This document shows positions 43,621 through 61,284 of a stretch of 64,000 nt of DNA, piece by piece (within the stretch, counting starts at the first letter, position 1; the number at the start of each line of letters is the position of its first letter). The notes beneath the pieces are model-generated. The model worked only from the letters and a program-made list of their open reading frames with translations. It was not told where the DNA came from and ran no database searches. The position numbers and the translations under genes were made by a program. The stretch is from an uncultured Bacteroidales bacterium (GTDB lineage: Bacteria > Bacteroidota > Bacteroidia > Bacteroidales > Muribaculaceae): NCBI GenBank assembly GCA_902760865.1, contig CACWID010000003.1:176526-240525 (forward strand), read 5' to 3'.

Positions 43621-45438
43621 ATGCAGAACATTCGCAACGTGGCCATCATCGCACACGTCGATCATGGCAAAACAACACTGGTAGACAAGATGTTAGCGGC
43701 AGGTAACCTGTTCCGCGACAACCAAAACATGGGTACTCAGATCCTGGACAGCAATGACCTGGAGCGTGAGCGAGGCATCACCATCCTGTCCAAGAACGTG
43801 TCCATCTCCTATAACGGCTACAAGATCAACATTATCGACACCCCGGGGCATAGCGACTTCGGCGGCGAGGTGGAGCGCGTACTCAACATGGCCGACGGCT
43901 GCCTGCTGCTCGTGGACGCCTTTGAGGGGCCCATGCCTCAGACACGCTTTGTTCTGCAGAAAGCCCTGCAGCTGGGCCTCAAGCCCATCGTGGTGATCAA
44001 CAAGGTCGATAAGCCCAACTGCCGCCCCGACGAGGTGCAGGAGATGGTCTTTGACCTGATGTGCAACCTCGATGCCACCGAGGACCAGCTGGACTTCCCC
44101 ACCATCTTCGGCTCAGCTAAGGAAGGCTGGATGAGCACCGACTGGCAACAACCCACCGACAACATCACCGCCGTGCTCGACGCCATCATCAAGTACATCC
44201 CTGAGCCCGAGATGCTCGAGGGTGATGCCCAGATGCTCATCACGTCACTGGACTACAGCAGCTACGTGGGCCGTATCGCCGTGGGCCGCGTGCACCGCGG
44301 CACGCTCAAGGACGGCATGGAGGTCGCCCTGTGCAAGAAAGACGGTGAGGTGGCAAAGCAGAAGATCAAGGAGCTACGCACCTTCGAGGGCATGGGACAG
44401 AAGCATGTCGAGAGCGTCAGCAGCGGCGACATCTGCGCCATCATCGGCCTGGAGGGCTTCGAGATCGGCGATACCGTCACCCTGCCCACCAATCCCGAGC
44501 CGCTGCCCCGCATCGCGATTGACGAGCCCACGATGTCGATGCGCTTCTGCATCAACGACTCGCCCTTCTTCGGCAAGGACGGCAAGTATGTGACCTCGCG
44601 CCACATCTGGGACCGCCTGCAGCGCGAGCTGGACAAGAACCTGGCCCTGCGTGTCGAGCGCACCGAGGGCGAGGACGCCTGGAACGTCTATGGCCGTGGC
44701 GTGCTGCACCTGTCGGTCCTCATCGAGGAGATGCGCCGCGAGGGCTACGAACTCCAGGTGGGACAGCCGCAGGTCATCATCAAGACCATCGACGGCGTGA
44801 AGTGCGAGCCCATCGAGGAACTGAGCATCAATGTGCCCGAGGAATACTCCAGCAAGATGATTGACCTGGTTACCCGCCGCAAGGGTGAGATGACCATGAT
44901 GGACACTCAGAACGACCGCATCCACCTCCAGTTCAAGATACCGTCACGCGGCATCATCGGCCTGCGCACCAACGTGCTGACAGCAAGCGCCGGCGAGGCC
45001 ATCATGTCTCACCGCTTCCTGGCCTACGAGCCCTGGAAGGGTGACATCGCACGCCGCACCAACGGTTCGCTGGTAGCCATGGAAGGCGGCACCGCCTATG
45101 CCTATGCTATCGACAAGCTGCAGGACCGCGGCCGCTTCTTCATCTTCCCCCAGGAGGATGTGTATGGCGGTCAGGTCGTCGGCGAGCACACCAAGGAGAA
45201 AGACCTCGTCATCAACGTCACCAAGTCCAAGAAGCTGACCAACATGCGCGCCAGCGGTGCCGATGACAAGGTGAAGATCGTACCCCCCATCGTGTTCAGC
45301 CTGGAGGAAGCACTCGAGTACATCAAGGCCGACGAATATGTGGAAATCACCCCCAACCACATCCGCATGCGCAAAATCATCCTCGACGAACTCGAGCGCA
45401 AGCGCATCGCCAAGGCCAACGGCCAGGATGAAGACTGA
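43621..45438 (+). CDS. typA: Ribosome-associated GTPase TypA/BipA
   Basis: A 605-residue translational GTPase related to EF-G and LepA, acting on 50S assembly and stress adaptation. The start is ATG 43621 ([20 protein letters not shown] in short MQNIRNVAI), because the -7 box lies just before it. Visible motifs are G1 [10 protein letters not shown]2 region ERERGITI, G3 [14 protein letters not shown] and G4 NKVDK. The BipA C-terminal text GPRG-like [13 protein letters not shown] and [13 protein letters not shown] is also present. Length agrees with the family. Confidence 0.97.
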
Positions 45439-45469
45439 CGCTTCGCCTGCACTCTAAACGAATTATTAT

Positions 45470-45502
45470 AGGGTCGCCTATTCTGGCGGCCCTGTTTTTT
45501 TT
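45470..45502 (+). terminator. Terminator after typA
   Basis: A 9-bp stem AGGGTCGCC/GGCGGCCCT (45470-45493) with loop TATTCT, followed by eight T residues. It separates typA from the sensor-NRPS unit. Confidence 0.85.
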
Positions 45503-45557
45503 ATTTACAATGCATTTTTTACCCCAAAAACACATTATAAAATTAATCAGAATTTTA

Positions 45558-45565
45558 TACCTTTG
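45558..45565 (+). promoter_or_regulatory. -7 box of the sensor-NRPS transcription unit
   Basis: TACCTTTG, 29 bp before ATG 45594. It is the only clear promoter-like box seen before the six-gene run ending at 58855. No -33 match. Confidence 0.6.
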
Positions 45566-45593
45566 CACATTCGGTGTATAACTGCCCACAACG

Positions 45594-47825
45594 TTGAATA
45601 TCTATTCAAATCAAGTCATGACGTTCAAGCAACTGTTTAACAAATTCAAGAGGAGCCATTATCGCAACTCCATATCGGCCATTGCACTCATCCTGCTCGC
45701 GGGTGCACTTATCGAACTCATTTCGCTTGCTCAGTACAACTATGCCCACAACATGGTTGAGGAAGGGCTGGATTACCGCGCTGAGAACGAGATGACCTTA
45801 AAGGCGGTGCTTGTAAAGAGCATACTCAAGTCCCACGAGGCTATGGTGCGCAACTACCTGTGGCCTGTCCAGCACCAACTCAAGAATCCCGATGCTATCC
45901 CCAAAATCCTCAAACGACTCGTTTCGTCCAATGATGACGTGATGACTTGTTTTGCAGCATTTACACCGGAGTATTATCCCAACCGTTCACGGCTGTTTGA
46001 GCCAGTGGCGATCCGTCAAGGTGACAGTATCTATACCAAGCAAGTAGCCAGTGACATGCACGATTACACTCAACGCGAGTATTACTATAAAGCCGTCCTG
46101 AACAATACACCCTCATGGAGCGACCCCTATCTGGATACCGATGGATGCGGCAAGGTCGTCACCACCTATGCATTGCCTCTCACCGACGAGAACGGCAAAA
46201 CCGTTGGCACACTCGGCATCGACCTGTCGACCGAGGGCATCATCGACACCTTGAACACCAGACATAATTATCCCTCCACCTTTTACCTGCTACTCACCGA
46301 AGACGGAAAACTCATCTCCAAGCCCGACACGAGCCATACCAAGCAAAGTGATGTAGAGGCTGTCGTGAAAATGATTAACGACAGCACCTGCGAGCGCGAG
46401 CCCAGCAGTTCGGGTCGAAGCAAAGTCATCACCTTCAAAGACAAAAAGAAGGGCACGGGATATGCTTACCATGCCTTTATGAAAGGCCAACCCCACTGGC
46501 AGGTGGTGATGGTGTGCTATGACAAAGAGGTTTACAGCAAACTCAATGACATGCGTCGCAACATGCTGCTGCTCATGCTTGGAGCCTTCTCGCTGTTAGG
46601 ATTCATCCTGTACCGCGTACACCAGTACGTGAAACGCTTGCATGAATCCAGATTGAACAAGGAGCGCACGGACAGTGAACTGCACGTCGCCCAGAAGATT
46701 CAGAGCGAGATGCTGCCCCACAGCGACATCACGCGGCCCGACATTGACGTGAGTGGAAAACAGGTCTCAGCGCTGGAAGTGGGCGGCGACCTGTATGACT
46801 ACTTCATCCGCGACGAGAAGCTTTACTTCTGCATCGGTGACGTGAGCGGCAAGGGCGTGCCGTCATCGCTGGTGATGGCTGTCGTTCATTCCCAGTTCCG
46901 CAGCATCGCCAAGCATGAGAGCAGTCCCTCTCGCATCATGTCGAGCATCAACGAGATGGCCTGTGAAGGCAACGAGACCAATATGTTCGTCACCTATTTC
47001 GTAGGCGTGCTTGACCTGCCCACGGGCCGCCTGCGCTACTGCAATGCCGGCCATGACGCTCCACTGATCATCGACCATGGCGTGTCCCTCCTGCAAGTGA
47101 ATGCCAATCTGCCAATAGGCTTGTTCAATGACTTCAGCTTTACCTCGCAGGAATATCAGCTGCCTCAGGAAACCACCTTGCTGTTTTACACCGACGGCTT
47201 GACCGAGACTGCCGATGCAGCGCACAACTTGTTCGGACTGCAGCGCATCATCAACACCGCTCAAGATAGTCTGGAAAAGGGCAAGACCACACCGGCAGAG
47301 CTGATGGCTTGCCAATATGAGGCGTCACTGCAATTTGCTAACGGCACACAGCAGAGTGACGACTTGACGATGCTGGCCATCCACTACCACCGTCCAGACG
47401 AGCCACTGACAATGGAAGAGAGCATCTCGCTGACAAACGACGTGAAACAAGTTCCCGAATTGAACCAATTCGTCAAATCGGTGGCCACCCGATTAAACCT
47501 TGAGTCGTCAGTTTCGTCTCAACTGATGCTGGCGGTTGAGGAGGCTGTGGTCAATGTGATGAACTATGCCTACCCCATCGGCTGCACGGGAGATATCAGA
47601 GTGGATGCTAAAGCGACACAGAAATGGCTGAAATTCATCATTACTGACAAGGGCAAGGCATTTGACCCGACACAAAACAACAATGCCGACATCACGCTCA
47701 ATGCCGAGGAGCGGCCCATCGGAGGCCTGGGCATCCTGCTGGTGCAGCAGCTGATGGACACCATCAACTATGAGCGCGTCGACGGCAAGAATGTGCTCAC
47801 GCTAAAGAAGAATATACAATCTTGA
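45594..47825 (+). CDS. Membrane dCache sensor - SpoIIE phosphatase - RsbW-like kinase fusion
   Basis: A 743-residue signalling protein. A first membrane helix (about 25-45), a large extracytoplasmic dCache-like domain (about 50-310; WSDPYLDTDGCGKVVTTYALPL) and a second helix (about 318-338) are followed by a PP2C/SpoIIE phosphatase (about 360-600; QKIQSEMLP, VGGDLYDYF, IGDVSGKGVPSSL, NAGHDAP, FYTDGLTE). The C-terminus is an HATPase_c anti-sigma-kinase domain (about 620-743; AVEEAVVNVMNYAYP, DKGKAFDP, GGLGILLV). It would both phosphorylate and dephosphorylate a STAS protein, and the STAS gene follows 33 bp downstream. ATG 45618 (MTFKQL) is an alternative start. No sigma factor gene is nearby, so the output is unknown. 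Confidence 0.9.
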   Translation: MNIYSNQVMTFKQLFNKFKRSHYRNSISAIALILLAGALIELISLAQYNYAHNMVEEGLDYRAENEMTLKAVLVKSILKSHEAMVRNYLWPVQHQLKNPDAIPKILKRLVSSNDDVMTCFAAFTPEYYPNRSRLFEPVAIRQGDSIYTKQVASDMHDYTQREYYYKAVLNNTPSWSDPYLDTDGCGKVVTTYALPLTDENGKTVGTLGIDLSTEGIIDTLNTRHNYPSTFYLLLTEDGKLISKPDTSHTKQSDVEAVVKMINDSTCEREPSSSGRSKVITFKDKKKGTGYAYHAFMKGQPHWQVVMVCYDKEVYSKLNDMRRNMLLLMLGAFSLLGFILYRVHQYVKRLHESRLNKERTDSELHVAQKIQSEMLPHSDITRPDIDVSGKQVSALEVGGDLYDYFIRDEKLYFCIGDVSGKGVPSSLVMAVVHSQFRSIAKHESSPSRIMSSINEMACEGNETNMFVTYFVGVLDLPTGRLRYCNAGHDAPLIIDHGVSLLQVNANLPIGLFNDFSFTSQEYQLPQETTLLFYTDGLTETADAAHNLFGLQRIINTAQDSLEKGKTTPAELMACQYEASLQFANGTQQSDDLTMLAIHYHRPDEPLTMEESISLTNDVKQVPELNQFVKSVATRLNLESSVSSQLMLAVEEAVVNVMNYAYPIGCTGDIRVDAKATQKWLKFIITDKGKAFDPTQNNNADITLNAEERPIGGLGILLVQQLMDTINYERVDGKNVLTLKKNIQS

Positions 47826-47858
47826 AATAATAACCATTAATCAATAACAATCTGACAA

Positions 47859-48164
47859 ATGAAAACGACAATTGAAGAACTTGACGAGAAGATCATCGTC
47901 ACCATGATTGGCTCGCTCGACACCGCAGCCGCTATCGAAACCGAACAGGCACTGAAACCCATCACTGCCGAGGGTACTGCCAAGGATATCGTGTTTGAAT
48001 GTAAGGATCTGGAGTATATCGCATCCAGTGGCCTGCGCATTCTGCTCGACGTGCTCAAGAAGACCAAGGCCAAGGGCAAGACCGTCACCTTGCGTAACAT
48101 GAATGATGACATCAAAAACGTGTTCCAGATTACCGGGTTCATCAACTTGTTTGAGTTTGAGTAA
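47859..48164 (+). CDS. STAS-domain anti-sigma-factor antagonist
   Basis: A 101-residue SpoIIAA/RsbV-like protein. The fold text IIVTMIGSLDTAAAIETEQAL and the phosphorylation site in LEYIASSGLRILLDV (likely Ser56) are visible. It is presumably the substrate of the kinase and phosphatase domains encoded just upstream. The dephosphorylated form would bind and sequester or activate a partner not found in the window. Confidence 0.93.
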   Translation: MKTTIEELDEKIIVTMIGSLDTAAAIETEQALKPITAEGTAKDIVFECKDLEYIASSGLRILLDVLKKTKAKGKTVTLRNMNDDIKNVFQITGFINLFEFE

Positions 48165-48171
48165 ATGACCC

Positions 48172-49536
48172 ATGGACATGAAACGCATGAATATCAGGCT
48201 ATGGCTGCTGGCAGCCATAGCCATACCTGCGCTATTGGCAACGGGCCAGACATCGACTGATACCATTCCCGCTCCCAAAAACCAGTTCAGCATCGATTTG
48301 CAGTTCCTGGGACGTGGCGAGGCCCGATATGGCGGCATGCCGCAGTCGCCCATTGAGGAAGAAGAAGAGGAGGAAACTGAGAACCCAAAGGTGCCCACCT
48401 CCAATTTCGTGCTCAGCCGCGCTCGTCTTCCCATCTACTTCAAGCGAGACTGGCTCGAAACCCTCGTCACCCCGCAGCACTCTGGCGTGTGGGGACAAGC
48501 GGGCAAGGGTTCCTTCAACCTGCATGAGGCCTGGGTGAAGATGACCACTCGTTTCGGCATGTTTGCCCAAGTGGGACGTGTGGCGCTCAACTATGATGAC
48601 GAACGTATCATCGGCTCTGATGACTGGGCAATGGCTTCATCTTCCCACGACATTTTGCGACTGGGTTATGAAGGTCACGGCCACAAGGGCCACATCATTC
48701 TGGCCTATAATCAGAATGCTAATGTGATGGCTACCGGCGGTTCCATCTACGAGAACGGCGGACAGCCCTACAAAACCATGCAGACGGCGTGGTATCACTA
48801 TGATGTACCGCGTTTCCCGCTGGGTGTCTCGTTGCTGTTCATGAACATCGGCATGCAGAGTGAATTGAATAATAACCGTGACAGAACATGGTTCCAACAC
48901 CTGGCGGGTGGATATATGTCGTTCAAGCCCAATCACTGGAAGGCCGAGGCGGCCTATTACAAGCAGTTCGGCAAGAACGAGCATGGCATTAAGATCGACG
49001 CATGGATGGCAAGTGGTAAGGTCACCTATATACAATCACCGAGATTCAATGTCACAGCGGGTTATGACTACCTGAGCGGTGACAAGTATTTTGCCGTGCC
49101 CACCGGGGGCAACATCGGCATGACGCATCACGATGTCATTAAGGGATTCAGTACGGTCTATGGCTCCCACCATCAGTTCTACGGAGCAATGGACTTCTTC
49201 TATGTGAGCGCCTATCATCACGGGTTCACCCCAGGCCTTCAGAATGCCTACATCGGCAGTACTTACAGCCCGTTGAAGAACATGATGCTCAATGCCAGTT
49301 ACCACTACTTTGCCATAGCCACTAACCTCACCGATATGGAAAAGACCCTCGGTCACGAGATTGAGTTTGGGGTCGGCTATAGCATTCATCGCGACGTGAA
49401 TGTCTCTGCAGGAGCCTCCTTCATGTGGGGCGGCGAGACCATGGAACGACTGAAACGTTCCACTTCAAATAACAGCCTGCGATGGGGATACATCACGCTT
49501 GCTGTCAACCCGCGCATCTTCAGTACCAAATGGTAA
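48172..49536 (+). CDS. Outer-membrane beta-barrel (porin-like) protein
   Basis: A 454-residue exported protein with a signal peptide (to about LLATGQ). The mature part is rich in alternating aromatic beta strands (LRLGYEGHGHKGHIILAYNQ, WKAEAAYYKQFG, FNVTAGYDYLSGD, EFGVGYSIHRDVNVSAG) and ends in a strand with terminal Trp, TLAVNPRIFSTKW, as expected of a barrel. A run of seven Glu occurs near 63-70. It resembles alginate-export-type or general porin-like barrels. It starts 7 bp after the STAS gene and 25 bp before the NRPS gene, so a role in moving the product or a precursor across the outer membrane is a reasonable inference. Confidence 0.75.
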   Translation: MDMKRMNIRLWLLAAIAIPALLATGQTSTDTIPAPKNQFSIDLQFLGRGEARYGGMPQSPIEEEEEEETENPKVPTSNFVLSRARLPIYFKRDWLETLVTPQHSGVWGQAGKGSFNLHEAWVKMTTRFGMFAQVGRVALNYDDERIIGSDDWAMASSSHDILRLGYEGHGHKGHIILAYNQNANVMATGGSIYENGGQPYKTMQTAWYHYDVPRFPLGVSLLFMNIGMQSELNNNRDRTWFQHLAGGYMSFKPNHWKAEAAYYKQFGKNEHGIKIDAWMASGKVTYIQSPRFNVTAGYDYLSGDKYFAVPTGGNIGMTHHDVIKGFSTVYGSHHQFYGAMDFFYVSAYHHGFTPGLQNAYIGSTYSPLKNMMLNASYHYFAIATNLTDMEKTLGHEIEFGVGYSIHRDVNVSAGASFMWGGETMERLKRSTSNNSLRWGYITLAVNPRIFSTKW

Positions 49537-49561
49537 TAACTCTAATCTATAAACAAACAAC

Positions 49562-52500
49562 ATGAAATTATCTGCACCCTTATCAACCTCCCAATACGGA
49601 ATCTATGTGGAATGTGTAAACCACCAGGGAGAACCTTGCTATAATTTGCCTTTCTATTATGTACTCGACCGTTCGCTGGATGGCCAGAGGCTGCTAGATG
49701 CCGTTAAGACGGCATTTATGGCTCACCCCACGCTGTTCACCCGAATCGAGTTGGGCGAAGACGGAGAGCCAGTACAGACAATCGACATGGCCAATGAACA
49801 GTGGTCGCTCAGCATCGAAGACATCAATGACCTGGAACAGGAAAAGGCACATTTCGTGCAGCCGTTCAACATCTATGGCGACCGCCTGTTCCGCTTCAGG
49901 CTGCTGCGCGACAAGGAGCACTATTACTTCATGGTCGACTATCACCACATCATCATGGACGGCGCATCGTTCCAGATCTTGATGCAAGACATCGACAAGG
50001 CCTATCGTGGCGAGCCCATTGCCCCCGAAGAGATGACGATGATGGATGTTGCCACCGACGAAGCAGCCAAGCGCAAGACTCCCGCCTATGAGGAAGCCAA
50101 GCAGTGGTATGCCGCCAACTTTGACTGTGGCGACACCTTCACCCAGTTTGTGCCCGATTTGGAAGAGACTGAGTATCGCGAGGGTCAGTTGCTACGCACC
50201 TTGTCGCTCGACTTGGGCCGCGTGGATGAATACTGCAAGAAGAACGGTGTGTTCAAGAGCACGCTGTTCACCACAGCCTATGCCTTCCTGCTGGCCAAGT
50301 TCAACAATGAGCAGGAGAGCCTGTTCAACACCATCTACAACGGCCGCACCGACAAGCGCTTCAACCGCTCGTTAGGAATGACGGTCAAGACCCTGCCGGT
50401 TTATGCCAAGTTCACCAACGAGACCACCGTGCTTGACCTGCTGCGACAGGGACAGGACCAGATGAGCGGATGCCGCGAGCACGACGCATACTCCTACGCC
50501 GACCTGATGGCAGACTTGAACCTGCAGACCAACTCCATCTTCGCCTGGCACGGCAATGTGCTTGACGTCCTGACAATTGACGGCAAGCCCACTGAGATGA
50601 TTAGAATTGCCAACAACACGCTTGAAGAGTCGTTCTACCTGAAGGCCTTCATCAACGACGGCAAGATAGAAATTGAAGCCGAATACAAAGCCAACGAATT
50701 CTCGAGCGACCTCGTTGCCCAGATTCTGGAAAGCTATGAGGCCGTGCTCGAGGGCTTCATCACCCAGGAATACCTGCGCGACATCGACATTGCGTCGGCC
50801 GACCAGGTGGCTACCGTCAATAGCTTTAACCCGGGCGAACTGGATTATGACGACACCCAGAACATCGTCTCGCTGTTCCGCCAGCAGGCCAAAGCCACGC
50901 CCGACGCTATCGCCGTAGTATATCTCGACAAGCAGTTCACTTATGCCCAAGTTGACGAGATCAGTGACCGCATCGCAGCCTATATCGTCGGCAAGGGCCT
51001 GGGCGCTGAGGACGTTGTGTCGGTAATCATTCCCCGCTGCGAGTGGATGCCCATCGCCTCGCTGGGCGCACTCAAGGCCGGTTGCGGCTATCAGCCGCTC
51101 GACCCGACCTACCCCAAGGAGCGCCTCAACTTCATGATGCAGGATGCCAGTGCCAAGTTGCTCATTGCCGACGAGGAACTGCGTCCCATCGTTGACGAGT
51201 ACCAGGGCGAGGTGCTGTTGACCAAGGACATCATGGGCCTGCCCGCCGCGGCAGCGCCTCAGGTGGACATCAAGCCCGACCAGCTGTTCATCATGCTTTA
51301 CACCTCGGGTTCGACAGGTGTGCCCAAGGGTTGCCAGCTGATCCACCGCAATCTTGTGGCTTTCTGCCACTGGTACCACCAGATGTTCGAACTCAAGCAG
51401 GGGAACAAGGTCGCTGCCTATGCCAGCTACGGTTTTGACGCCAACATGATGGACACCTACCCCGCCCTCACTTGCGGTGCAACGGTCTATATCGTTCCTG
51501 AGGAATTGCGTCTGGACCTCATTGCCCTCAACGAGTACTTTGAGCAGAACGGCATCACCCACTCGTTCATGACCACGCAGGTGTGCTTCCAATTTGCTAC
51601 CAGTGTCGAGAACCACACGTTGCAGTATCTCTCGACCGGCGGCGAGAAACTGGCATCAATAACGCCTCCGCCGGGCATCAAGTTCTTCAACCTCTATGGC
51701 CCCACCGAGTCAACGGTATTCATTACCTACTTCCTGGTGGACAAGAAGATGAAGGAAATTCCCATTGGCAAGGCGCCGAAGAACGTGCGCTTGTACATCG
51801 TTGACCCGCAGGGTCATCGCCTCCCGGTGGGCGCAGCCGGCGAATTGTGGGTAGCAGGTCCCCAGGTGAGCCGCGGCTACCTGAACCGCCCCGAGAAGAC
51901 GGCCGAAGTCTTTATTTCCAATCCGTTCTCAACCGAGGAGAAATATTCCCGCATCTATCGCACGGGCGACATAGTTCGCTACCTGCCCTCGGGTGACATC
52001 CAGTTTGTGGGACGCCGCGACGGTCAGGTCAAGATTCGCGGTTTCCGCATCGAGCTCAAGGAGGTAGAGAGCATCATCCGCGAGTTCCCGGGCATCAAGG
52101 ATGCCACGGTTCAGGCCTTTGACGACGAGGGCGGCGGCAAGTTCATCGCTGCCTACATCGTGAGCGACGAGCAAGTGGACATCGAGGCACTGAACAATTT
52201 CATCATGGACGAGAAACCGCCCTATATGGTGCCCGCCGTGACGATGCAGATCGATGCCATCCCCTTGAACCAGAATCAGAAGGTGAACAAGCGCGCCCTG
52301 CCCAAACCCGAGAAGAAGGCTGCAGCCGTCGAGGCCGTCAATGTGCCCATGAACGTGCTGGAGGAGGAACTGCACCAGATTATCGCCGACATCGTCAACA
52401 ACAAGGAATTCGGTGTGACCACGATACTGGGCTTTGCGGGTCTGACTTCTATCTCGGCTATCAAGCTGGCCGTGCAGATCAACAAGCGCTTCGGCGTGAC

Positions 52501-55500
52501 GCTCGACTCCCGCAACCTGGTGAAGGCAGGTACCATCCAATCGATAGAGAACGAGATCCTCAAGACGATGCTCGCTGGCGGCATTGTAGAGGCGCAGGGT
52601 CCTGCGTCTCCCGCCCCCACCCAGGAAGCCCGCACCAGTGCACCGCTCTCCTATGCACAGACGGGTGTCTATTTCGATTGCCTGAAGAATCCGGCATCCA
52701 CCATCTATAACATTCCTTACATGCTCTCTTATCCCGAGGGCATTGAAGCCAACGTCCTTGCCGACACTGTGAAGCGCGTCATCGAGTCGCATCCCGAACT
52801 GAGCGTCCACTTCACCACCGAGGGCGACACCATCGTCCAGACGACTGATGACAGTGTTCCCGTCGAGGTAGGTATCACCGATATAACCGATGAGGAATTG
52901 GCGAAATACAAGAAAGAGTTCGTGCGTCCCTTCAATCTGCAGAAGGCGCCGTTATACCGTGCCGAGGTGGTCAAGACCGCCAGCGGTGTTCATCTGCTGC
53001 TGGATTTACACCATCTCGTATTTGACGGTGGTTCAGCCGACCTGTTAATCCGCAAGATCAATGCGGCCCTCGAGGGCAAAGAGGTGGAGAAGGAGACCTA
53101 CAACTACCTGGACTTTGTCGCCGACCAGCAGGCTGCCGAGGAGACCGACGCCTTTAAGGAGTCACAGCGCTTCTTCGCTGAGAAATTGCAGACCTGTGAG
53201 GGTGCCAGCGAGATTCCTGCCGACCTGCCCAAGACCGACGAGCAGGGCTTCATCGGCGAGGCTGTCTGCCCCGTTGATTTAGAGAAAGCGACAGCCTTCT
53301 GCCGCCAGCAGGAGATTACCCCGGCCCACCTGTTCCTGGCAGCTACCTCCTATGTGGTTTCGCGCTACACCAACAACCGCGACGTCTATCTGTGCACCGT
53401 CAGCAGCGGCCGCAGCAACCTGAAGATTGCCGACACGGTGGGTATGTTCGTCAATACGCTAGCCCTGGGCATGAGCATCGACGACGTGACAGTGAGCGAG
53501 TTCCTGAAGAATGCCAGCGACACGTTCGACCAGACGCTGCGCCATGAGGATTATCCCTTTGCACGCATCGCTACCGATTATGGTTTCCGTCCCGCCATCG
53601 CCTACGCTTATCAGGTGGGCGTACTCTCGCAGTACACCGTCAACGGCAAACCCGTTGACCAGGAGTTGCTGGAGCTGAACGTTCCCAAGTTCAAAATCAA
53701 CATCAAAATCGAGACCAGCGGCGTTGTCGTGGAATATGACGACGCCATATACAGCGAGCGCGTGGGACGCGGCCTGGCCGAGAGCATCGTCGCTGTCGCT
53801 AACAGGATGATGGAGCAGCCGCAGGCCAAATTGCGCCAGCTGTCCATCGTGAGCGAGAACCAAGAGGAGGAATTGAGCCACCTGCGTGAGGTAGAGACGG
53901 GCGACATTCCCGCCGAGGCTCCCTTCACCTTCTTCCACGAGTGCATCGGTCACTTTGCACAGACGCAGCCCGACCATGAGGCACTGGTTGCCATCGATGC
54001 CAAATACACCTACAAGGAGATGGACGAGGTGACCAACCGCATCGCCGCCGCCCTGAGGAAACGCGGCGTGAAGGAGCGTGACCGCGTGGCCCTGTTGCTG
54101 CCGCGCACGAGCCGCCTGATCCTCGCCCTGTTCGGCGTGCTGAAATCGGGCGCTGCCTACATCCCCTGCGATCCCGAGTATCCCGCTGACCGCGTGAAAC
54201 TCATCCTCGAGGACAGTGAGGCACGCTACATCATCACCACCCATGACCGCATGGCCGACTCGCCCGCCGACAAGGCGATAGACGTCGAAGACCTCATCCA
54301 TGACGACAACGACGGCAGCATTGTCACCGACATCACGCCCGATGACCTCGCCTACCTGATTTACACCAGCGGCTCGACGGGCCGTCCTAAGGGTGTGATG
54401 CTGCACCACCGCGGCATCTGCAACTACCTGTACGGACATCCCGCTAACGTGTTTGCCAACGGTGTGATGACCGACGCCAAGCGCATGCTGAGCGTGACGA
54501 CCATCTCGTTTGACGCCGCGCTGCAGGACATCGGCACCGCCTACTTCAACGGCAAGACGCTCATCGTCGCTACCGAGGAGCAGGCCAACAACCCGCTTGA
54601 CCTGGCACGTCTCATCAACGAGCAACACATCAACATGGTATCGGGCACGCCGTCGCGCTGGATGACGTGGCTGACGAGTGAGGACTTCTGCGACGCCATC
54701 AGCCGCATCAACATCGTGCGTGCCGGCGGTGAGAAGTTCTCCGACCAGTTGCTCGCCCAGCTGAGGAGCGTGACCAAGGCCCGCATCTTCAACTGCTACG
54801 GTCCCACCGAGACCACGGTGGCATCCAATAACAAGGAATTGACCCACGCCGACATCGTGACCGTGGGCAAGCCGCAGCTGAACGTCAAGGAGTACATCGT
54901 GGACCAGGACGGCAACGAGCTGCCCGTGGGAGTCGTCGGCGAGCTGTACATCGGCGGCCGCGGCGTGGCACACGGTTATAACAACCTTGACGAGATGACG
55001 CGCGAGCGCTTTGTGGACTACCACGGCGAGCGCATCTACAAGTCGGGCGACTATGCCAAGTGGCTGCCCGATGGCGATGTCGTCATCCTGGGCCGCACCG
55101 ACCACCAGATCAAGCTGCGCGGCCTGCGCATCGAGTTGGGTGAGATCGAGAACGTGATGCTCAAGGTCGATGGCCTGAAGAAGGTGGTCATCCTCATCCG
55201 CAAGATCAATGATAAGGAGCACCTGTGTGCTTATTATACCGCCGACCGCGAAATCAAGCCCGAGGACCTCAAAGCCGAGATTTCCAAGAGCCTGACGCAA
55301 TACATGGTGCCCACGGCCTACCTGCAATTGAAGGAGATGCCCATGACGCCCAACGGCAAGACCGACGTCAAGGCGCTGCCCGAACCCGAGCTGGCCATCA
55401 GCTCAGCCTATGTCGAGCCCGCCAATGACACGGAGCGCACCTTCTGCAGCATCTTTGCCGACATTCTGCAGATGGACAAGGTGGGTGCTACTGACAACTT

Positions 55501-56833
55501 CTTTGAGTTGGGCGGCACCTCGCTGGTTGTGACCCGCGTCATCATCGAGGCCGACAAGGCTGGCCTGCATGTCGCTTATGGTGACGTATTCGCCAACCCG
55601 ACACCCCGCAAACTCGCACGCCTCATCACGGGTGAGAGCGATGACGAGGGCAATGACGAGATCACCGGATTTGACTACACGGCCATCAACGACCTGCTGC
55701 TGAAGAACACGCTGGATAGCTACCGCAACGGCGAGCGCCAGCAGTTGGGCAATGTGCTGTTGACCGGTGCCACGGGTTACCTGGGCATCCACATCCTGCG
55801 CGAACTCATCGACTCTGACGCCGAGAACATCTACTGCCTCGTGCGTGGCAAAAACCAAGAGGCCGCCGAGGGGCGACTTCGCACCCTCCTGTTCTACTAT
55901 TTCTCTGAAGCCTTCAAAGACCAGTTCGGCAAGCGTCTGCACATCGTTTTGGGCGACGTGACGAGCGATTTCAGCGAAGGTTTACAGGTGGATACCATCT
56001 TCAATTGCGCTGCTATCGTGAAGCACTTCAGCGAGGGCACCGAGATTGAGGACGTGAACATCGGTGGCGCACAACGCTGCGTGGACTACTGCCTGAAGAC
56101 CGGCGCCAAACTCGTGCATGTTTCGACAGCGAGCACGCGCGGTCTGTGGGCTGGCGAAATCCAGAGTGACATCTTCACCGAGCAGCGGTTGTACATGGGC
56201 CAGTTCCTGGGCAACAAGTACATCTACTCCAAGTTCTTGGCCGAGCGCCTGATCTTGGACGCTGTCGCCAACAAGGGACTGAAGGCCAAGATTATGCGTG
56301 TGGGCAACCTGGCAGCACGTTCGACCGACGGTGAGTTCCAGGCCAACTTCCAGACCAACTCATTCATGGGCCGCATCAAGGTGTACAACATGCTGGGCTG
56401 CTGTCCTCACAGCGTGCGCAACGTACAGGTAGAGTTCTCGCCCATCAACGAGGTGGCTCATGCCATCGTGCTGCTGAGTTCTACGCCTAAGGAGTGCACC
56501 GTCTTCCATCCCTACAACATCCACGGCCAGTTCATGGGTGATGTGCTTACAGGGCTGACTTCTGTGGGCGAAGGCGTGAAGTTCGTCGAGCAGGAAGAGT
56601 TTGAGGAGGCAATGAATGCCGCCAAGGACGATCCCACAAAGGCTAGGACGATGTCGAGTCTGCTCGCCTATCAGGACATGGCGCACGGGCAGAAGACCGC
56701 CGACGTCAAGCGTGAGAATAACTACACGACCCAGGTGCTGTACCGACTGGGCTTCGACTGGTCGCCCACCTCGTGGGACTATGTGGAGCGCATGTTGACA
56801 GCCATCGGCACCCTGGGCTTCTTTGACATGTAA
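49562..56833 (+). CDS. Dimodular nonribosomal peptide synthetase with terminal reductase (C-A-PCP-C-A-PCP-R)
   Basis: A 2423-residue cytoplasmic assembly line. Domain 1 is C (about 1-420; HHIIMDG near 127), then A1 (440-930; LYTSGSTGVPKG, NLYGPTE, RIYRTGDIVR, invariant Lys in QKVNKRALP) and PCP1 (about 940-1010; Ser in GLTSISAI). C2 follows (1028-1450; HHLVFDG near 1150), then A2 (1465-1955; IYTSGSTGRPKG, NCYGPTETT, YKSGDYAKW, Lys in NGKTDVKALP) and PCP2 (1960-2035; ELGGTSL). The last domain is a thioester reductase (2060-2423; TGATGYLG, YIYSK). There is no thioesterase. An initiating C domain suggests N-acylation of the first residue. Hand-aligned specificity codes are DAMFSGLVFK (A1) and DAQSVACVAK (A2); neither matches a code I know, so residues are not predicted. 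Reductive release would give a peptide aldehyde or alcohol. Confidence 0.95.
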   Translation: MKLSAPLSTSQYGIYVECVNHQGEPCYNLPFYYVLDRSLDGQRLLDAVKTAFMAHPTLFTRIELGEDGEPVQTIDMANEQWSLSIEDINDLEQEKAHFVQPFNIYGDRLFRFRLLRDKEHYYFMVDYHHIIMDGASFQILMQDIDKAYRGEPIAPEEMTMMDVATDEAAKRKTPAYEEAKQWYAANFDCGDTFTQFVPDLEETEYREGQLLRTLSLDLGRVDEYCKKNGVFKSTLFTTAYAFLLAKFNNEQESLFNTIYNGRTDKRFNRSLGMTVKTLPVYAKFTNETTVLDLLRQGQDQMSGCREHDAYSYADLMADLNLQTNSIFAWHGNVLDVLTIDGKPTEMIRIANNTLEESFYLKAFINDGKIEIEAEYKANEFSSDLVAQILESYEAVLEGFITQEYLRDIDIASADQVATVNSFNPGELDYDDTQNIVSLFRQQAKATPDAIAVVYLDKQFTYAQVDEISDRIAAYIVGKGLGAEDVVSVIIPRCEWMPIASLGALKAGCGYQPLDPTYPKERLNFMMQDASAKLLIADEELRPIVDEYQGEVLLTKDIMGLPAAAAPQVDIKPDQLFIMLYTSGSTGVPKGCQLIHRNLVAFCHWYHQMFELKQGNKVAAYASYGFDANMMDTYPALTCGATVYIVPEELRLDLIALNEYFEQNGITHSFMTTQVCFQFATSVENHTLQYLSTGGEKLASITPPPGIKFFNLYGPTESTVFITYFLVDKKMKEIPIGKAPKNVRLYIVDPQGHRLPVGAAGELWVAGPQVSRGYLNRPEKTAEVFISNPFSTEEKYSRIYRTGDIVRYLPSGDIQFVGRRDGQVKIRGFRIELKEVESIIREFPGIKDATVQAFDDEGGGKFIAAYIVSDEQVDIEALNNFIMDEKPPYMVPAVTMQIDAIPLNQNQKVNKRALPKPEKKAAAVEAVNVPMNVLEEELHQIIADIVNNKEFGVTTILGFAGLTSISAIKLAVQINKRFGVTLDSRNLVKAGTIQSIENEILKTMLAGGIVEAQGPASPAPTQEARTSAPLSYAQTGVYFDCLKNPASTIYNIPYMLSYPEGIEANVLADTVKRVIESHPELSVHFTTEGDTIVQTTDDSVPVEVGITDITDEELAKYKKEFVRPFNLQKAPLYRAEVVKTASGVHLLLDLHHLVFDGGSADLLIRKINAALEGKEVEKETYNYLDFVADQQAAEETDAFKESQRFFAEKLQTCEGASEIPADLPKTDEQGFIGEAVCPVDLEKATAFCRQQEITPAHLFLAATSYVVSRYTNNRDVYLCTVSSGRSNLKIADTVGMFVNTLALGMSIDDVTVSEFLKNASDTFDQTLRHEDYPFARIATDYGFRPAIAYAYQVGVLSQYTVNGKPVDQELLELNVPKFKINIKIETSGVVVEYDDAIYSERVGRGLAESIVAVANRMMEQPQAKLRQLSIVSENQEEELSHLREVETGDIPAEAPFTFFHECIGHFAQTQPDHEALVAIDAKYTYKEMDEVTNRIAAALRKRGVKERDRVALLLPRTSRLILALFGVLKSGAAYIPCDPEYPADRVKLILEDSEARYIITTHDRMADSPADKAIDVEDLIHDDNDGSIVTDITPDDLAYLIYTSGSTGRPKGVMLHHRGICNYLYGHPANVFANGVMTDAKRMLSVTTISFDAALQDIGTAYFNGKTLIVATEEQANNPLDLARLINEQHINMVSGTPSRWMTWLTSEDFCDAISRINIVRAGGEKFSDQLLAQLRSVTKARIFNCYGPTETTVASNNKELTHADIVTVGKPQLNVKEYIVDQDGNELPVGVVGELYIGGRGVAHGYNNLDEMTRERFVDYHGERIYKSGDYAKWLPDGDVVILGRTDHQIKLRGLRIELGEIENVMLKVDGLKKVVILIRKINDKEHLCAYYTADREIKPEDLKAEISKSLTQYMVPTAYLQLKEMPMTPNGKTDVKALPEPELAISSAYVEPANDTERTFCSIFADILQMDKVGATDNFFELGGTSLVVTRVIIEADKAGLHVAYGDVFANPTPRKLARLITGESDDEGNDEITGFDYTAINDLLLKNTLDSYRNGERQQLGNVLLTGATGYLGIHILRELIDSDAENIYCLVRGKNQEAAEGRLRTLLFYYFSEAFKDQFGKRLHIVLGDVTSDFSEGLQVDTIFNCAAIVKHFSEGTEIEDVNIGGAQRCVDYCLKTGAKLVHVSTASTRGLWAGEIQSDIFTEQRLYMGQFLGNKYIYSKFLAERLILDAVANKGLKAKIMRVGNLAARSTDGEFQANFQTNSFMGRIKVYNMLGCCPHSVRNVQVEFSPINEVAHAIVLLSSTPKECTVFHPYNIHGQFMGDVLTGLTSVGEGVKFVEQEEFEEAMNAAKDDPTKARTMSSLLAYQDMAHGQKTADVKRENNYTTQVLYRLGFDWSPTSWDYVERMLTAIGTLGFFDM

Positions 56834-56846
56834 CTAAGATAACGTT

Positions 56847-56890
56847 CTAGATGGTCTAGAAAATCTAGAGAATCTAGACCATCTAGACAA
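56847..56890. repeat. Five CTAG units at exact 9-bp period in the NRPS-MATE spacer
   Basis: CTAG occurs at 56847, 56856, 56865, 56874 and 56883. The stretch ATGGTCTAGA...TCTAGACCAT is also palindromic (56851-56860 and 56873-56882). It occupies most of the 67-bp spacer. Confidence 0.75.
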
Positions 56891-56900
56891 TATTTCAGTA

Positions 56901-58220
56901 ATGGAGAACGATATCAACAAACAGTTTTACCGCTTCTTGTGGGCTTATATCCTGGTGGCACTGTCGGGCTGCCTGGGTACCGTGGTGGACGGCATCATCG
57001 TGGGCAACCTCATCAGTGAGGATGGCGTGAGCGCCATCAACCTGTCCACGCCCATCACCCAGTTCATCTTTACCATGCATCTGCTCATCAATGCGGGTGC
57101 GGGCATGCTGGTGGCCTATGCCTTAGGCCAGAAAAAGATCGATGACGCCAAGCGTTTCTTCACCCGTTCGCTGTCGCTGACGGTAGGCCTGGGACTGCTG
57201 CTGTCGATTGTCGGCGGCCTGATTTTCCCAAGCCAGACGGCACGCATGCTGTGCAGCAACGAGCAGATTTTGCCTCTGGCCGAGGACTATATGCGGGTGC
57301 TGCTCATCGGTTGTCCGGCCTTCATCCTCATGTGGGGGCTCTCGACCATGGTGGGCGTGAACGGTAGCCCGCGGCTGGTATCGCTGGCCGTGATTATCGA
57401 CAACGCGGTGAACCTGTGTCTTGACATCGTATTCATCAAGTGGTTCGGCTGGGGTATTACGGGCTCTTCGGCAGCGACGGTGATCGGCCATCTGGTGGGC
57501 ATCGCCATCCTGCTCACCCACTGGCGCAATCCCGAGAACCGTCGCCTGTCGCCCGTGTTCACCACCGACGGACTGGCGGCATCGTGGAAGCGGATTATCT
57601 CGCAGGGCGCCCCGCTGGCGGTGGCCTCCATCTGCTTGACGCTGTTGTTGTTCAGCGCCAACAAAATCGTCCTCACGACGACCGGCCGCACGGGTATCTT
57701 TGTGTTCGCCCTGTGTATGAACCTGCTGCAGGTCTATAATCTGTTCCTCTCGGGCACGTGCCAGACGCTGCAGTCGTTGGGCGCCATCCAGGTGGGCCAA
57801 GGCAACAACGAGGGTGTCCGTACCGTCATCAAGCGTGGCTTCCGATTCATTACCGTCGCCATGGTCGTTACCTGCCTGCTCGTTTGGATTTACCCGCAGG
57901 GCATCGCACATCTGTTCGGTTGCGACGAGCCCGAGATGTTGAGCCAGAGTGCGCCTGCTCTGCGCGTGTTTGCCTTGAGCTTCATCCCGTTCTGCTACAT
58001 CTATGTGCTGATGATCGTCTATAAGCTCTACAGCCAGCACCGCATGGCACTGTTCATCTCGTTTGCCTTGTCCCTCACGGTCATTCCCGTGTTGTGGGTC
58101 ATGGCCAAGTACATGCCACAGCACATCTGGTACAGCTACCTCGTCGCCTATCTGATTGAGGCCGTCGTCATCTTCGCGCTACACAAGGGACGGCACATCC
58201 AGTTTGAGCTCAAATCATGA
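56901..58220 (+). CDS. MATE-family efflux transporter
   Basis: A 439-residue inner-membrane antiporter with 12 predicted helices. Typical MATE features are VVDGIIVGNLISEDGVSAINLSTPI in the first helices and GVNGSPRLVSLAVIIDNAVNLCLDI mid-protein. It lies 67 bp after the NRPS gene and overlaps the phosphopantetheinyl transferase gene by 4 bp, so it probably exports the NRPS product. A general drug exporter role cannot be excluded. Confidence 0.92.
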   Translation: MENDINKQFYRFLWAYILVALSGCLGTVVDGIIVGNLISEDGVSAINLSTPITQFIFTMHLLINAGAGMLVAYALGQKKIDDAKRFFTRSLSLTVGLGLLLSIVGGLIFPSQTARMLCSNEQILPLAEDYMRVLLIGCPAFILMWGLSTMVGVNGSPRLVSLAVIIDNAVNLCLDIVFIKWFGWGITGSSAATVIGHLVGIAILLTHWRNPENRRLSPVFTTDGLAASWKRIISQGAPLAVASICLTLLLFSANKIVLTTTGRTGIFVFALCMNLLQVYNLFLSGTCQTLQSLGAIQVGQGNNEGVRTVIKRGFRFITVAMVVTCLLVWIYPQGIAHLFGCDEPEMLSQSAPALRVFALSFIPFCYIYVLMIVYKLYSQHRMALFISFALSLTVIPVLWVMAKYMPQHIWYSYLVAYLIEAVVIFALHKGRHIQFELKS

Positions 58221-58855
58221 TTTACCTGTGTCCAGACATCTATAGTTTTGAACTACAAGAGGCGCTGGACAGTGTCAGCCCGGAGCGCCGCGAGAAGGCC
58301 TTGCGCTACCGTCAGGAACGTGACCAGCGTCTGTGCCTCGCGGCCTATCGGCTGCTACAAGACGCATTAAGTTCGGAATATGGCATCAAGGGGGTGAAGC
58401 CCGAGTTCATCTATAATGACAAAGGCAAACCGCTGCTGAAAGATCATCCCGACATTCACTTCAGCCTGAGCCATTGCCACGATGCTGCCGCCCTCGCCAT
58501 CGACGACAGGCCCGTGGGTATCGACATCGAGAATTATGACCAATATAGCGAGGAGGTGGCACGCACGGTCATGAGCGATGAGGAGATGCGCGTCATCCTC
58601 TCCTCTCCCCGTCCAGCGGTGGCATTCACCCGCCTGTGGACAATGAAGGAAAGCCTATTCAAACTCACGGGCGATGACTACGGCGGCGACATCGCCCACA
58701 TGCTGGAGGACACCTCGGCCTATGAATTCTCGACGTTTGACTATCCTGACTATCTGCTCACGACCTGCCAGCACAAGCTAGGCAAGGGAGCAGCCATGGT
58801 CAAGAAAGTCATTGAAGCAATAAAAAATTGCCGATTATGTGATTTTTGGAACTAG
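58217..58855 (+). CDS. 4'-phosphopantetheinyl transferase, Sfp type
   Basis: A 212-residue enzyme that loads the phosphopantetheine arm on the carrier-protein serines. Motifs PLLKDHPDIHFSLSHC, VGIDIE and WTMKESLFKLTG are present with the two acidic Mg ligands. It overlaps the MATE stop (ATGA), which ties it to the NRPS unit. The last nine codons (CRLCDFWN region) are encoded by the first unit of the 32-bp-period repeat, so the natural C-terminus may have been altered by that repeat. Confidence 0.92.
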   Translation: MIYLCPDIYSFELQEALDSVSPERREKALRYRQERDQRLCLAAYRLLQDALSSEYGIKGVKPEFIYNDKGKPLLKDHPDIHFSLSHCHDAAALAIDDRPVGIDIENYDQYSEEVARTVMSDEEMRVILSSPRPAVAFTRLWTMKESLFKLTGDDYGGDIAHMLEDTSAYEFSTFDYPDYLLTTCQHKLGKGAAMVKKVIEAIKNCRLCDFWN

Positions 58856-58911
58856 AAAAGTGCCGATTATGTGATTTTTAAGACCAAAAATTTGCCGATA
58901 ATGTGATTTAA
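58828..58911. promoter_or_regulatory. Three direct repeats at exact 32-bp period upstream of the GH92 gene
   Basis: TTGCCGATTATGTGATTTTT at 58828, GTGCCGATTATGTGATTTTT at 58860 and TTGCCGATAATGTGATTTAA at 58892. The 12-bp linkers differ. A 32-bp period is about three helical turns, so bound proteins would lie on one DNA face. The array covers the end of the PPTase gene and lies 76-160 bp before the GH92 start. An operator is the simplest reading. Confidence 0.6.
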
Positions 58912-58986
58912 AGATAGAATTGGGGGGTATTTTTCTTCTGAATTCTACAATTTATATAAAGCAATAATTTTAATAATCAGCTATAT

Positions 58987-61284
58987 ATGAAAAAGTTAAA
59001 TGCTTATATGAAAGTAGCACTGGTTTTACTTGCTGTCATGTCTTTCGGTATAACAGGTGTCGCAACTCCGATGGAGCCGGTGGACTATGTGAGTACGCTG
59101 GTGGGAACTCAGTCTGATTTCCAGTTATCTACCGGTAATACCTACCCGGCCATCGCGATGCCCTGGGGCATGAACTTTTGGGTGCCGCAGACGGGCAAAA
59201 ACGGCGACGGCTGGCAGTACACTTATGATGCCAACAAGATTCGCGGCTTCAAGCAGACCCACCAGCCCAGCCCGTGGATCAACGACTACGGCCAGTTCTC
59301 GCTGATGCCCACCGTGGGCGAGCCCGTGTTTGACCAGAACGAGCGCGCCAGCTGGTTCTCGCACAAGGCCGAAGTAGCGACACCCTACAATTACCAGGTC
59401 TATCTCGCCGACTATGACGTAACGGCCGAGGTGGCACCCACCGAGCGCGCTGCTATCCTGCGCTTTACCTTCCCAGAGACCGACCAGGCCAACGTCGTGG
59501 TTGATGCCTTTGACAAGGGCTCTGAAATCACTATTCAGCCCGAGCAGCGTCGCATCATCGGCTACTCGACGCGCAACAGCGGCGGCGTGCCCGAGGGTTT
59601 CAAGAATTACTTTGTCATCGAATTTGACAAGCCGTTCACTGTCTATTACACGGTCAATGACAGCATCATCAACGAGGGCGAGACCCACATCACCAGCAGC
59701 CACGCGGGAGCCATCGTGTCGTTCAAGACGCGTCGTGGCGAGCAGGTCAATGCCCGCGTCGCCTCCTCGTTCATCAGCCCGGAGCAGGCACAGCTCAACC
59801 TGCGCGAACTGGGCAACGACGACCTGGAGACCGTCAAGATGAAAGGCCGTCAGCGCTGGAACGACATCTTGAGTCGTATCGCTGTCGAGGACAACAATAT
59901 CGACCACCTGCGCACTTTCTACTCGTGTCTGTACCGCTCGGTGCTCTTCCCCCGCAGTTTCTATGAGATTGACGCCAAGGGGCAGCCTGTCCACTACAGC
60001 CCCTATAACGGCAAGGTGCTGCCGGGACGCATGTTCACCGACACGGGCTTCTGGGACACCTTCCGTGCCCTGATGCCCTTTGTCGACCTGATGTATCCCA
60101 CGATGGGCCAGTGGATGCAGGAGGGCCTGGTGAACACCTGGCTCGAGAGCGGATTCCTGCCCGAGTGGGCAAGCCCGGGCCACCGCAACTGCATGGTGGG
60201 CAACAACAGCGCATCTGTTGTCGCCGACGCCTATCTCAAGGGCCTGCGCGGCTATGACGTCGAGCAGTTGTGGGCAGCCGTAGTGCACGGCACTGGAGCA
60301 GTCCACCCTGAGGTCAAATCCACAGGTCGTCTGGGCTATGAGTATTACAATGACTTGGGCTATGTCCCCTACGATGTCGGCATCAAGGAGAACGTTGCAA
60401 GGACGCTGGAGTACGCCTACGACGACTGGTGCATCTACCGCCTGGGCAAAGCGCTGGGTAAGTCCGAAGAAGAGATCAAGGTTTTTGCCGACCGCGCCAT
60501 GAACTACCGCAAGGTGTTTGACCCGGAGACCAAACTGATGCGTGGCAAGTTCCAAGACGGATCTTTCCAGAAGCCCTTCAGTCCGCTCAAGTGGGGCGAC
60601 GCCTTCACCGAGGGCAACAGCTGGCACTACACCTGGAGCGTGTTCCATGACCCGCAGGGCCTCATCGACTTGATGGGAGGCAAGAACATGTTCTGCCAGA
60701 TGCTTGACTCGGTATTTGCCGTACCTCCCGTGTTTGACGACAGTTACTACGGCTTCACCATCCACGAGATACGCGAGATGCAGATCATGAACATGGGCAA
60801 CTATGCCCACGGCAACCAACCCATCCAGCACATGATCTACCTCTACAATTACGGTGGCCAGCCGTGGAAGGCCCAGTACTGGATCCGCCAGGTGATGGAC
60901 CGCCTCTATACCGCGGCCCCCGACGGCTACTGCGGCGACGAGGACAATGGCCAGACCTCGGCATGGTATGTCTTCTCGGCATTAGGCTTCTACCCCGTGT
61001 GCCCGGGCAGTAACCAGTACGTGCTCGGTACGCCCTATTTCGACAAGATGACACTCAGCTTGGAGAACGGCAAACAGGTGACCATCACCAGCGAGGGCGA
61101 GGGCTGCTACATCCAGCAGATGACCATCAACGGCAAGCCCTACACCCGCAACTACCTTGACCACAGCCAGCTGACCAACGGATGTAACATCCATTACGTC
61201 ATGGGCACGACGCCTAACAAGAAACGCGGCACGGGCAAGCAAGATGTCCCCTACTCCTTCTCCACCGACCTAAAACAACACTAA
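58987..61284 (+). CDS. Exo-alpha-mannosidase, GH92
   Basis: A 765-residue Ca-dependent exo-alpha-mannosidase (commonly alpha-1,2-mannose) for mannan or N-glycan trimming. A signal peptide (to about GVATPM) is followed by the beta-sandwich (STLVGTQSDFQLSTGNTYPAIAMPWGMNFW in shorter pieces: GNTYPAIAMPWGM) and the (alpha/alpha)6 domain. Signature motifs are TDTGFWDTFRALMPF, GNSWHYTWSVFHD and GDEDNGQTSAWYVFSALGFYPVCPG. It is a single gene between the NRPS unit and a convergent Fic gene, and is probably controlled by the repeat array upstream. Confidence 0.95.
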   Translation: MKKLNAYMKVALVLLAVMSFGITGVATPMEPVDYVSTLVGTQSDFQLSTGNTYPAIAMPWGMNFWVPQTGKNGDGWQYTYDANKIRGFKQTHQPSPWINDYGQFSLMPTVGEPVFDQNERASWFSHKAEVATPYNYQVYLADYDVTAEVAPTERAAILRFTFPETDQANVVVDAFDKGSEITIQPEQRRIIGYSTRNSGGVPEGFKNYFVIEFDKPFTVYYTVNDSIINEGETHITSSHAGAIVSFKTRRGEQVNARVASSFISPEQAQLNLRELGNDDLETVKMKGRQRWNDILSRIAVEDNNIDHLRTFYSCLYRSVLFPRSFYEIDAKGQPVHYSPYNGKVLPGRMFTDTGFWDTFRALMPFVDLMYPTMGQWMQEGLVNTWLESGFLPEWASPGHRNCMVGNNSASVVADAYLKGLRGYDVEQLWAAVVHGTGAVHPEVKSTGRLGYEYYNDLGYVPYDVGIKENVARTLEYAYDDWCIYRLGKALGKSEEEIKVFADRAMNYRKVFDPETKLMRGKFQDGSFQKPFSPLKWGDAFTEGNSWHYTWSVFHDPQGLIDLMGGKNMFCQMLDSVFAVPPVFDDSYYGFTIHEIREMQIMNMGNYAHGNQPIQHMIYLYNYGGQPWKAQYWIRQVMDRLYTAAPDGYCGDEDNGQTSAWYVFSALGFYPVCPGSNQYVLGTPYFDKMTLSLENGKQVTITSEGEGCYIQQMTINGKPYTRNYLDHSQLTNGCNIHYVMGTTPNKKRGTGKQDVPYSFSTDLKQH

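Follow-up and report, generated by a model that had tools for sequence, protein, structure and literature searches.

The closest described form of the switch considered here is Rv1364c of Mycobacterium tuberculosis, a fused RsbU/RsbW/RsbV protein in which a SpoIIE phosphatase and an RsbW kinase are carried on one chain with a STAS antagonist, the same set of activities as in the present locus. SiaABCD of Pseudomonas aeruginosa combines a STAS-like switch with a separate kinase and a diguanylate cyclase target, and SypE of Vibrio fischeri is a cytoplasmic response regulator. On the biosynthetic side, the known ruminopeptin and aureusimine enzymes, from Firmicutes, have a two-module layout with a terminal reductase; we know of no SpoIIE or STAS genes in their clusters. 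Excerpts of published reports describe ruminopeptin as a dipeptide aldehyde, with dipeptide aldehydes known from gut NRPSs (PMC12327764), NRPS clusters as common in rumen Bacteroidota (PMC8241843), and several STAS partner switches with unknown targets (PMC8256260). No description of a sensor/STAS-NRPS pairing or of a MATE-HATPase fusion was found in the titles and abstract openings listed from open-licence PMC papers.

The locus described below brings the two together. On balance it is probable that a peptide-aldehyde-type NRPS pathway is placed here under its own partner switch, in which a sensor sets the phosphorylation of a STAS protein and this protein in turn gates the pathway, the exporter being its likeliest point of action.

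Layout of the locus and its proteins

The window, a 64,000-nucleotide stretch from the genome of an uncultured Bacteroidales bacterium (3.35 Mb, 95% complete; G000), carries six plus-strand genes separated by gaps of 33, 7, 25, 67 and -4 bp. These gaps, given by the original prediction, were borne out by the ORF check, and Pfam domains agree with the predicted order of sensor (S), STAS (T), outer-membrane barrel (B), NRPS (N), MATE exporter (M) and 4'-phosphopantetheinyl transferase (PPTase, P). All positions below are on the plus strand. The terminator noted ahead of the first gene is present as an intrinsic terminator with an 11-pair stem and a T-run (45468..45495), which lies behind the upstream TypA/BipA gene and forms the left edge of the unit. 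The span of 45594-58855 first proposed for the unit stands as regards the gene positions, but not the sensor start. The sensor frame is open from the TTG at 45594; the start is most likely the ATG at 45618, judging by its retention in L030, L048, L050, L052 and L064. Among the sensor matches listed (the best 80 of 584), many of the named relatives are MAGs from ruminants, assigned to Prevotellaceae, Muribaculaceae or Bacteroidaceae.

Upstream of the sensor, TACCTTTGC (45558..45566) matches the motif that we take, by its consensus, to be a Bacteroidota-type -7 promoter box. One further match to this type of box occurs in 45431-59000, inside the MATE gene; simple shuffling predicts about 0.9 matches. 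A similar box is seen by eye upstream of the sensor in four of nine relatives inspected (L030, L048, L050, L052). In L035, L065 and L067 the sensor match starts only 21-52 bp after TypA, so promoter use may differ among species. Terminator prediction made no plus-strand call in the five gene junctions. The six genes are presumably transcribed as one unit. In the NRPS-MATE gap (56834-56900), five copies of TCTAGA pair up in a strong hairpin (-24.5 kcal/mol, z -5.9) that lacks a T-run; the distance between the NRPS and MATE matches is only 24-60 bp in 10 of 13 near relatives. The GH92 and Fic genes on the right flank are placed outside the unit because searches with their window proteins matched neither in 40 own-genus stretches, although some of these stop shortly behind the PPTase gene.

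The sensor (45618..47825) is built, according to Pfam, alignment and an AlphaFold model (mean pLDDT 82.7), of a membrane helix, a dCache domain, a second membrane helix, a SpoIIE/PP2C phosphatase domain (46812-47387) and an RsbW-like HATPase domain (47433-47810). The Pfam matches are to PDC/dCache, SpoIIE (1.9e-46) and HATPase_c_2 (1.3e-25). The closest solved fold to the model is the RsbU-RsbW pair of Rv1364c, and the PP2C domain of SiaA is also among the fold matches. Three components of an RsbU/W/V-type switch are present: i) a PP2C/SpoIIE phosphatase with conserved acidic metal motifs, of which GGD, GDxSGKG and YTDGxTE are invariant or nearly so across 15 aligned rows; ii) a serine kinase of the GHKL type, in which the N, G1 and G2 boxes are present; and iii) an RsbV/SpoIIAA-like STAS protein (47859..48164; Pfam STAS, alignment) with a phosphorylatable serine, S56 and S57 of its SSGLR phospho-serine motif being invariant in 20 of 20 aligned sequences. 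Pfam found no sigma-factor or DNA-binding gene among the six genes. AI-2 and amino acids were considered as candidate dCache ligands; compared by eye with the five PctA residues given in an excerpt of PMC9540692, Y, D and D seem kept and R and W do not. The sensor is split over two frames in the MAGs G010 (L040) and G025 (L053), through sequencing error or real loss.

The third gene (48172..49536) encodes an AlgE-like outer-membrane beta-barrel (Pfam Alginate_exp). Its AlphaFold model is weaker than that of the sensor (mean pLDDT 69), and the 16 best fold matches are all AlgE. The NRPS (49562..56833) has two modules in the order C-A-T-C-A-T-R. Pfam finds two C, two A and two PP-binding domains, including C2 (52634-53875), A2 (53954-54979) and T2 (55442-55627), and a terminal NAD_binding_4 reductase domain, R (55760-56467), as in reductase-type NRPSs. 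HHxxxDG is present in both C domains by eye. The product is probably an N-acyl dipeptide aldehyde. The A-domain pockets DAMFSGLVF and DAQSVACVA, picked at what we take to be the GrsA positions, match no nameable code, and an assignment of amino acids was dropped. The MATE exporter (56901..58220; Pfam MatE) has 439 aa and no HATPase domain. The PPTase (58217..58855; Pfam ACPS) has AusB as its nearest NCBIfam model, at 67 bits against an equivalog cut-off of 225. In some clusters an adenylate-forming ligase (F390-synthetase-related, below cut-off) lies between the NRPS and MATE or sensor genes (L055:5403-6746, L047, L158, L159, L184, L197).

Conservation and reshuffling of the linkage

Of 36 further genomes in the genus, 16 keep the full order S-T-B-N-M-P, one of them (at L047) with a ligase-like gene inserted between N and M; in four more (G008, G028, G034, G035) the unit is cut by contig ends inside it. 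Thus, judging by gene order, the six-gene grouping is not chance. The STAS gene is missing between sensor and barrel in G013. According to the original prediction, sensor and STAS genes usually lying apart from the NRPS in relatives would speak against a functional link. They usually lie together: a survey of 397 genomes of the family gave 72 reductase NRPSs of two modules with an R-domain identity of 52% or more, and for 61 of them the sensor was within 20 kb of the R domain. Of the other 11, six are on contigs cut in or near the NRPS (G028, G302, G425, G419, G403, G031), in G160 a diverged sensor adjoins the NRPS (L168), and the remaining four are those of G010, G030, G005 and G210, described further below. 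A sensor is found in 71 of the 72 genomes with such an NRPS and in 10 of the 325 others, after short matches of the type of the second G000 sensor, on contig C40, were filtered out; two of these ten (G390, G407) have a more distant two-module NRPS. Fisher values for this co-occurrence ignore relatedness and were not taken as probabilities.

Single-module reductase NRPSs of about 1440 aa occur at G007:C62, at G011:C23 and in 11 more genomes. Such enzymes provide an internal control: none of the 13 is near a sensor, each being in a sensor-bearing genome. In the seven genomes that have a two-module reductase NRPS but no sensor match at threshold, the NRPS is flanked by a diverged SpoIIE gene. For the more distant two-module NRPSs (44-51% identity), a sensor is near in two of 11 at threshold; when the contexts of the same 11 were read, SpoIIE and STAS genes were seen beside nine (L032, L051, L171-L174, L176-L178) and STAS alone beside the other two (L175, L179). 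The sole sensor match in G372 (residues 340-741) resembles the second, C40 type, so a cognate sensor is present in at most 88 of 89 genomes with a reductase NRPS.

In other families of the order, R-domain matches were found in 10 further genomes of 393 searched. The NRPS is accompanied by sensor, STAS and PPTase genes at L198 and L203, and by STAS, PPTase and a sensor cut at the contig edge at L199; by this gene context the sensor-NRPS link is kept in three families outside that of the window. L205 has only a PPTase gene beside the NRPS. None of the three genes was found at L200, L201, L202, L204, L206 or L207, where the NRPS is at a contig end or the contig is shorter than 9 kb; L201 and L202 have about 10 kb of downstream sequence without a sensor.

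Gene order was scored in 83 NRPS loci, after seven duplicate loci were dropped, with S and T counted when within 12 kb of N. Both were within this distance in 68 of the 83, a proportion biased upward because L069-L148 entered through the sensor search (best 80 of 584), and the counts of the family survey are fairer. The arrangement in the 68 loci is S-T-N in 48, N-S-T in 11, T-N-S in three, T-S-N in two, divergent in two, and S-N-T and N-T-S in one each. Each of the six possible S/T/N orders therefore occurs, two of them at one locus each (L181, L203). The remaining 15 loci have STAS only (five, including L199 with its cut sensor), sensor only (one) or neither (nine). A STAS gene without an adjoining sensor can sit 10 bp upstream of the NRPS (L039, L060, L188); this spacing is seen in G010 and G030.

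In quick LG+G4 trees with many open forks, at least 11 order changes are required on the NRPS tree (63 scored rows). For the sensor tree (146 rows, 78 of them NRPS-linked), the best tree requires 22 or more switches between NRPS-linked and unlinked, or 16 when the count is limited to starred branches, with gains and losses pooled. Five duplicates were dropped for the NRPS tree and the pocket comparison and eight for the sensor tree; near-copies such as L098/L195 remain. The A2 pocket varies widely, with at least nine different pockets among linked NRPS loci, and thus the switch is not tied to one product. That sensor and STAS stay beside the NRPS despite repeated reshuffling points to control of the peptide by an outside signal.

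Exporter fusion and the output of the switch

The MATE exporter is plain and about 440 aa long in the branch of the window, and 574-597 aa long in another branch. The long form ends in a C-terminal RsbW-like HATPase_c_2 domain, which scored over the Pfam cut-off in every one of the 12 fused proteins scanned, and alignment shows the N-box E and N and the G1 motif to be kept. The fusion is present at 15 loci, counted among NRPS loci only, and represents a single change on the tree. Since the exporter itself ends in an RsbW-like HATPase at these loci, the partner switch is physically tied to export. Fusions away from NRPS clusters were sought in the order outside the window family, in a search in which 74 of 384 genomes matched. 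The one whole-model match, G665, is located in an NRPS cluster. The other matches in frames of 486-640 aa were read in all cases but G611: those in G429, G633, G710, G537, G736 and G760 showed no MATE with this HATPase, and the match in G654 is L203, a sensor. A replacement of the fusion by the barrel (barrel in 0 of 15 fused vs 29 of 34 plain-MATE loci) was considered and set aside, because it rests on one change on the tree and is no test.

A mechanism can be proposed from these parts. The dCache domain would sense an extracytoplasmic signal, and the balance of phosphatase and kinase in the sensor would set the phosphorylation of STAS on its conserved serine, by analogy with the biochemistry of these families. 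In one state STAS would act on the peptide pathway, with export as the likeliest step. An RsbW-like HATPase domain, as on the fused MATE, normally serves STAS as docking and kinase site, so STAS would shuttle between sensor and exporter. The MATE of the window has no HATPase and is accompanied by the barrel instead; there STAS would have to act directly on the NRPS, the MATE or another partner. The PPTase would prime the C-A-T-C-A-T-R NRPS to make the N-acyl dipeptide aldehyde, which the MATE would move over the inner membrane and the barrel perhaps out. The earlier suggestion that an external signal sets production or export of the peptide gains support from the linkage in six S/T/N orders together with the MATE-HATPase fusions. 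More tentatively, and with somewhat less than even confidence, these features may represent a new class of partner-switch output, in which STAS docks on the RsbW-like domain of the exporter and an outside signal thereby gates secretion of the nonribosomal peptide after translation, with no part played by a sigma factor, a cyclase or a DNA-binding protein. In the branch of the window, with its plain MATE and barrel, the same logic would hold, with STAS acting directly on pathway proteins.

The output might instead be transcriptional: in a SypA-like manner, STAS would release or bind an unlinked regulator able to activate the promoter of the cluster, and its connection to the exporter would be secondary. 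Excerpts of PMC8256260 state that STAS-only outputs mostly end in gene expression, and offer a precedent in SypE/SypA, a dual kinase-phosphatase and a STAS protein of unknown target; the lack of a HATPase on the window MATE also favors this reading. However, the six genes include none for a sigma factor or DNA-binding protein, and the fused MATE-HATPase offers a target in relatives that is not transcriptional. In the whole host genome, SpoIIE, STAS and above-cut-off HATPase_c_2 domains occur twice each and are paired in two loci, so that the choice of classical partners for the window STAS is small, namely its own sensor and the pair at C40; the sole other HATPase_c_2 protein over cut-off has its own STAS. 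We regard a transcriptional output as rather unlikely, though worth keeping in view.

Less probable by a good deal is that sensor, STAS and barrel are an independent sensing or uptake unit merely travelling beside the NRPS. A sensor without a two-module NRPS is present in eight family genomes (G001, G007, G011, G019, G212, G323, G385, G422), so the switch may have another job; a single-module NRPS is present elsewhere in six of these, and of the other two G001 has none at threshold and G019 only a fragment of an R domain, at the edge of a contig. Sensor-STAS-barrel occurs without an NRPS at L084 and L112, and L036, L044, L049 and L194 have lost NRPS and MATE and kept sensor, STAS, barrel and PPTase. 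The eight genomes also count against a strict unit in the preferred reading, as do G210, where NRPS and sensor are about 58 kb apart, and G005, where they are apart with nothing within the stretches read; in G010 and G030 sensor and barrel are on another contig and STAS is beside the NRPS. Yet the linkage is kept through six S/T/N orders, NRPS clusters lacking the barrel still have sensor and STAS, and the MATE itself is fused to a HATPase. At L194 (5362-8009) an internal deletion has joined the first 52 NRPS residues in frame to the last part of the MATE, and these remaining residues fit loss by deletion, not a prior independent unit.

Slightly more doubtful still is a role of sensor and STAS in a general growth-control network of RelA/SpoT-like or APH-like kinases, with the NRPS as one of several affected genes. 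Related sensors do adjoin RelA_SpoT, HD_4 and APH-like genes. L119, L124, L129 and L141 share a repeated cassette, lying upstream of and including the sensor at 10001, of RelA_SpoT synthetase, HD_4 hydrolase, APH-like kinase, SpoIIE-HATPase sensor and STAS, in which the partner switch is possibly tied to ppGpp-like metabolism; the cassette families of related Bacteroidales were typed by Pfam on one member per gene family. The second G000 sensor (L157:7865-11479; G000:C40) has as its neighbour a 398-aa fusion of STAS with a TIGR02172-like (APH-like) kinase domain that scores below the model cut-off, and this pair also speaks for a growth network. Against it, the second G000 sensor and 16 of the 17 RelA_SpoT-linked rows fall in a 40-row NRPS-free sensor clade (support 94, under the star).

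With STAS gating the peptide pathway as the preferred reading, only a few genes come into question here as the STAS target, and one domain is singled out by the exporter fusion. If the reading is true, a whole lineage of rumen peptide pathways would be gated by a signal, which could explain silent clusters in culture, and the dCache ligand would be a handle for turning on rumen peptide clusters.

Comparison with known systems

The barrel resembles AlgE in its fold and Alginate_exp domain, and differs in sharing only 10-12% identity with its fold matches; neither the six genes nor their neighbors TypA, GH92 and Fic include a gene of alginate biosynthesis, unlike in an AlgE operon. SiaABCD has a membrane PP2C sensor in common with the window, SiaA PP2C being among the sensor fold matches, whereas the window cluster contains no cyclase. 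The likeness to SypE/SypA of Vibrio fischeri is that of a dual serine kinase/phosphatase and a STAS-only protein inside the locus they serve, with the target unknown in the part of PMC8256260 that describes it; the Syp output is a polysaccharide locus and the presumed output in the window is an NRPS pathway. In contrast to Rv1364c, STAS is encoded here by a separate gene, the sensor has an extracytoplasmic dCache domain, the cluster contains no sigma factor, and the switch is linked to an NRPS and exporter. That NRPS, in turn, resembles the enzymes of the dipeptide aldehydes ruminopeptin and aureusimine, with two modules ending in a reductase and with AusB as the nearest model of its PPTase.
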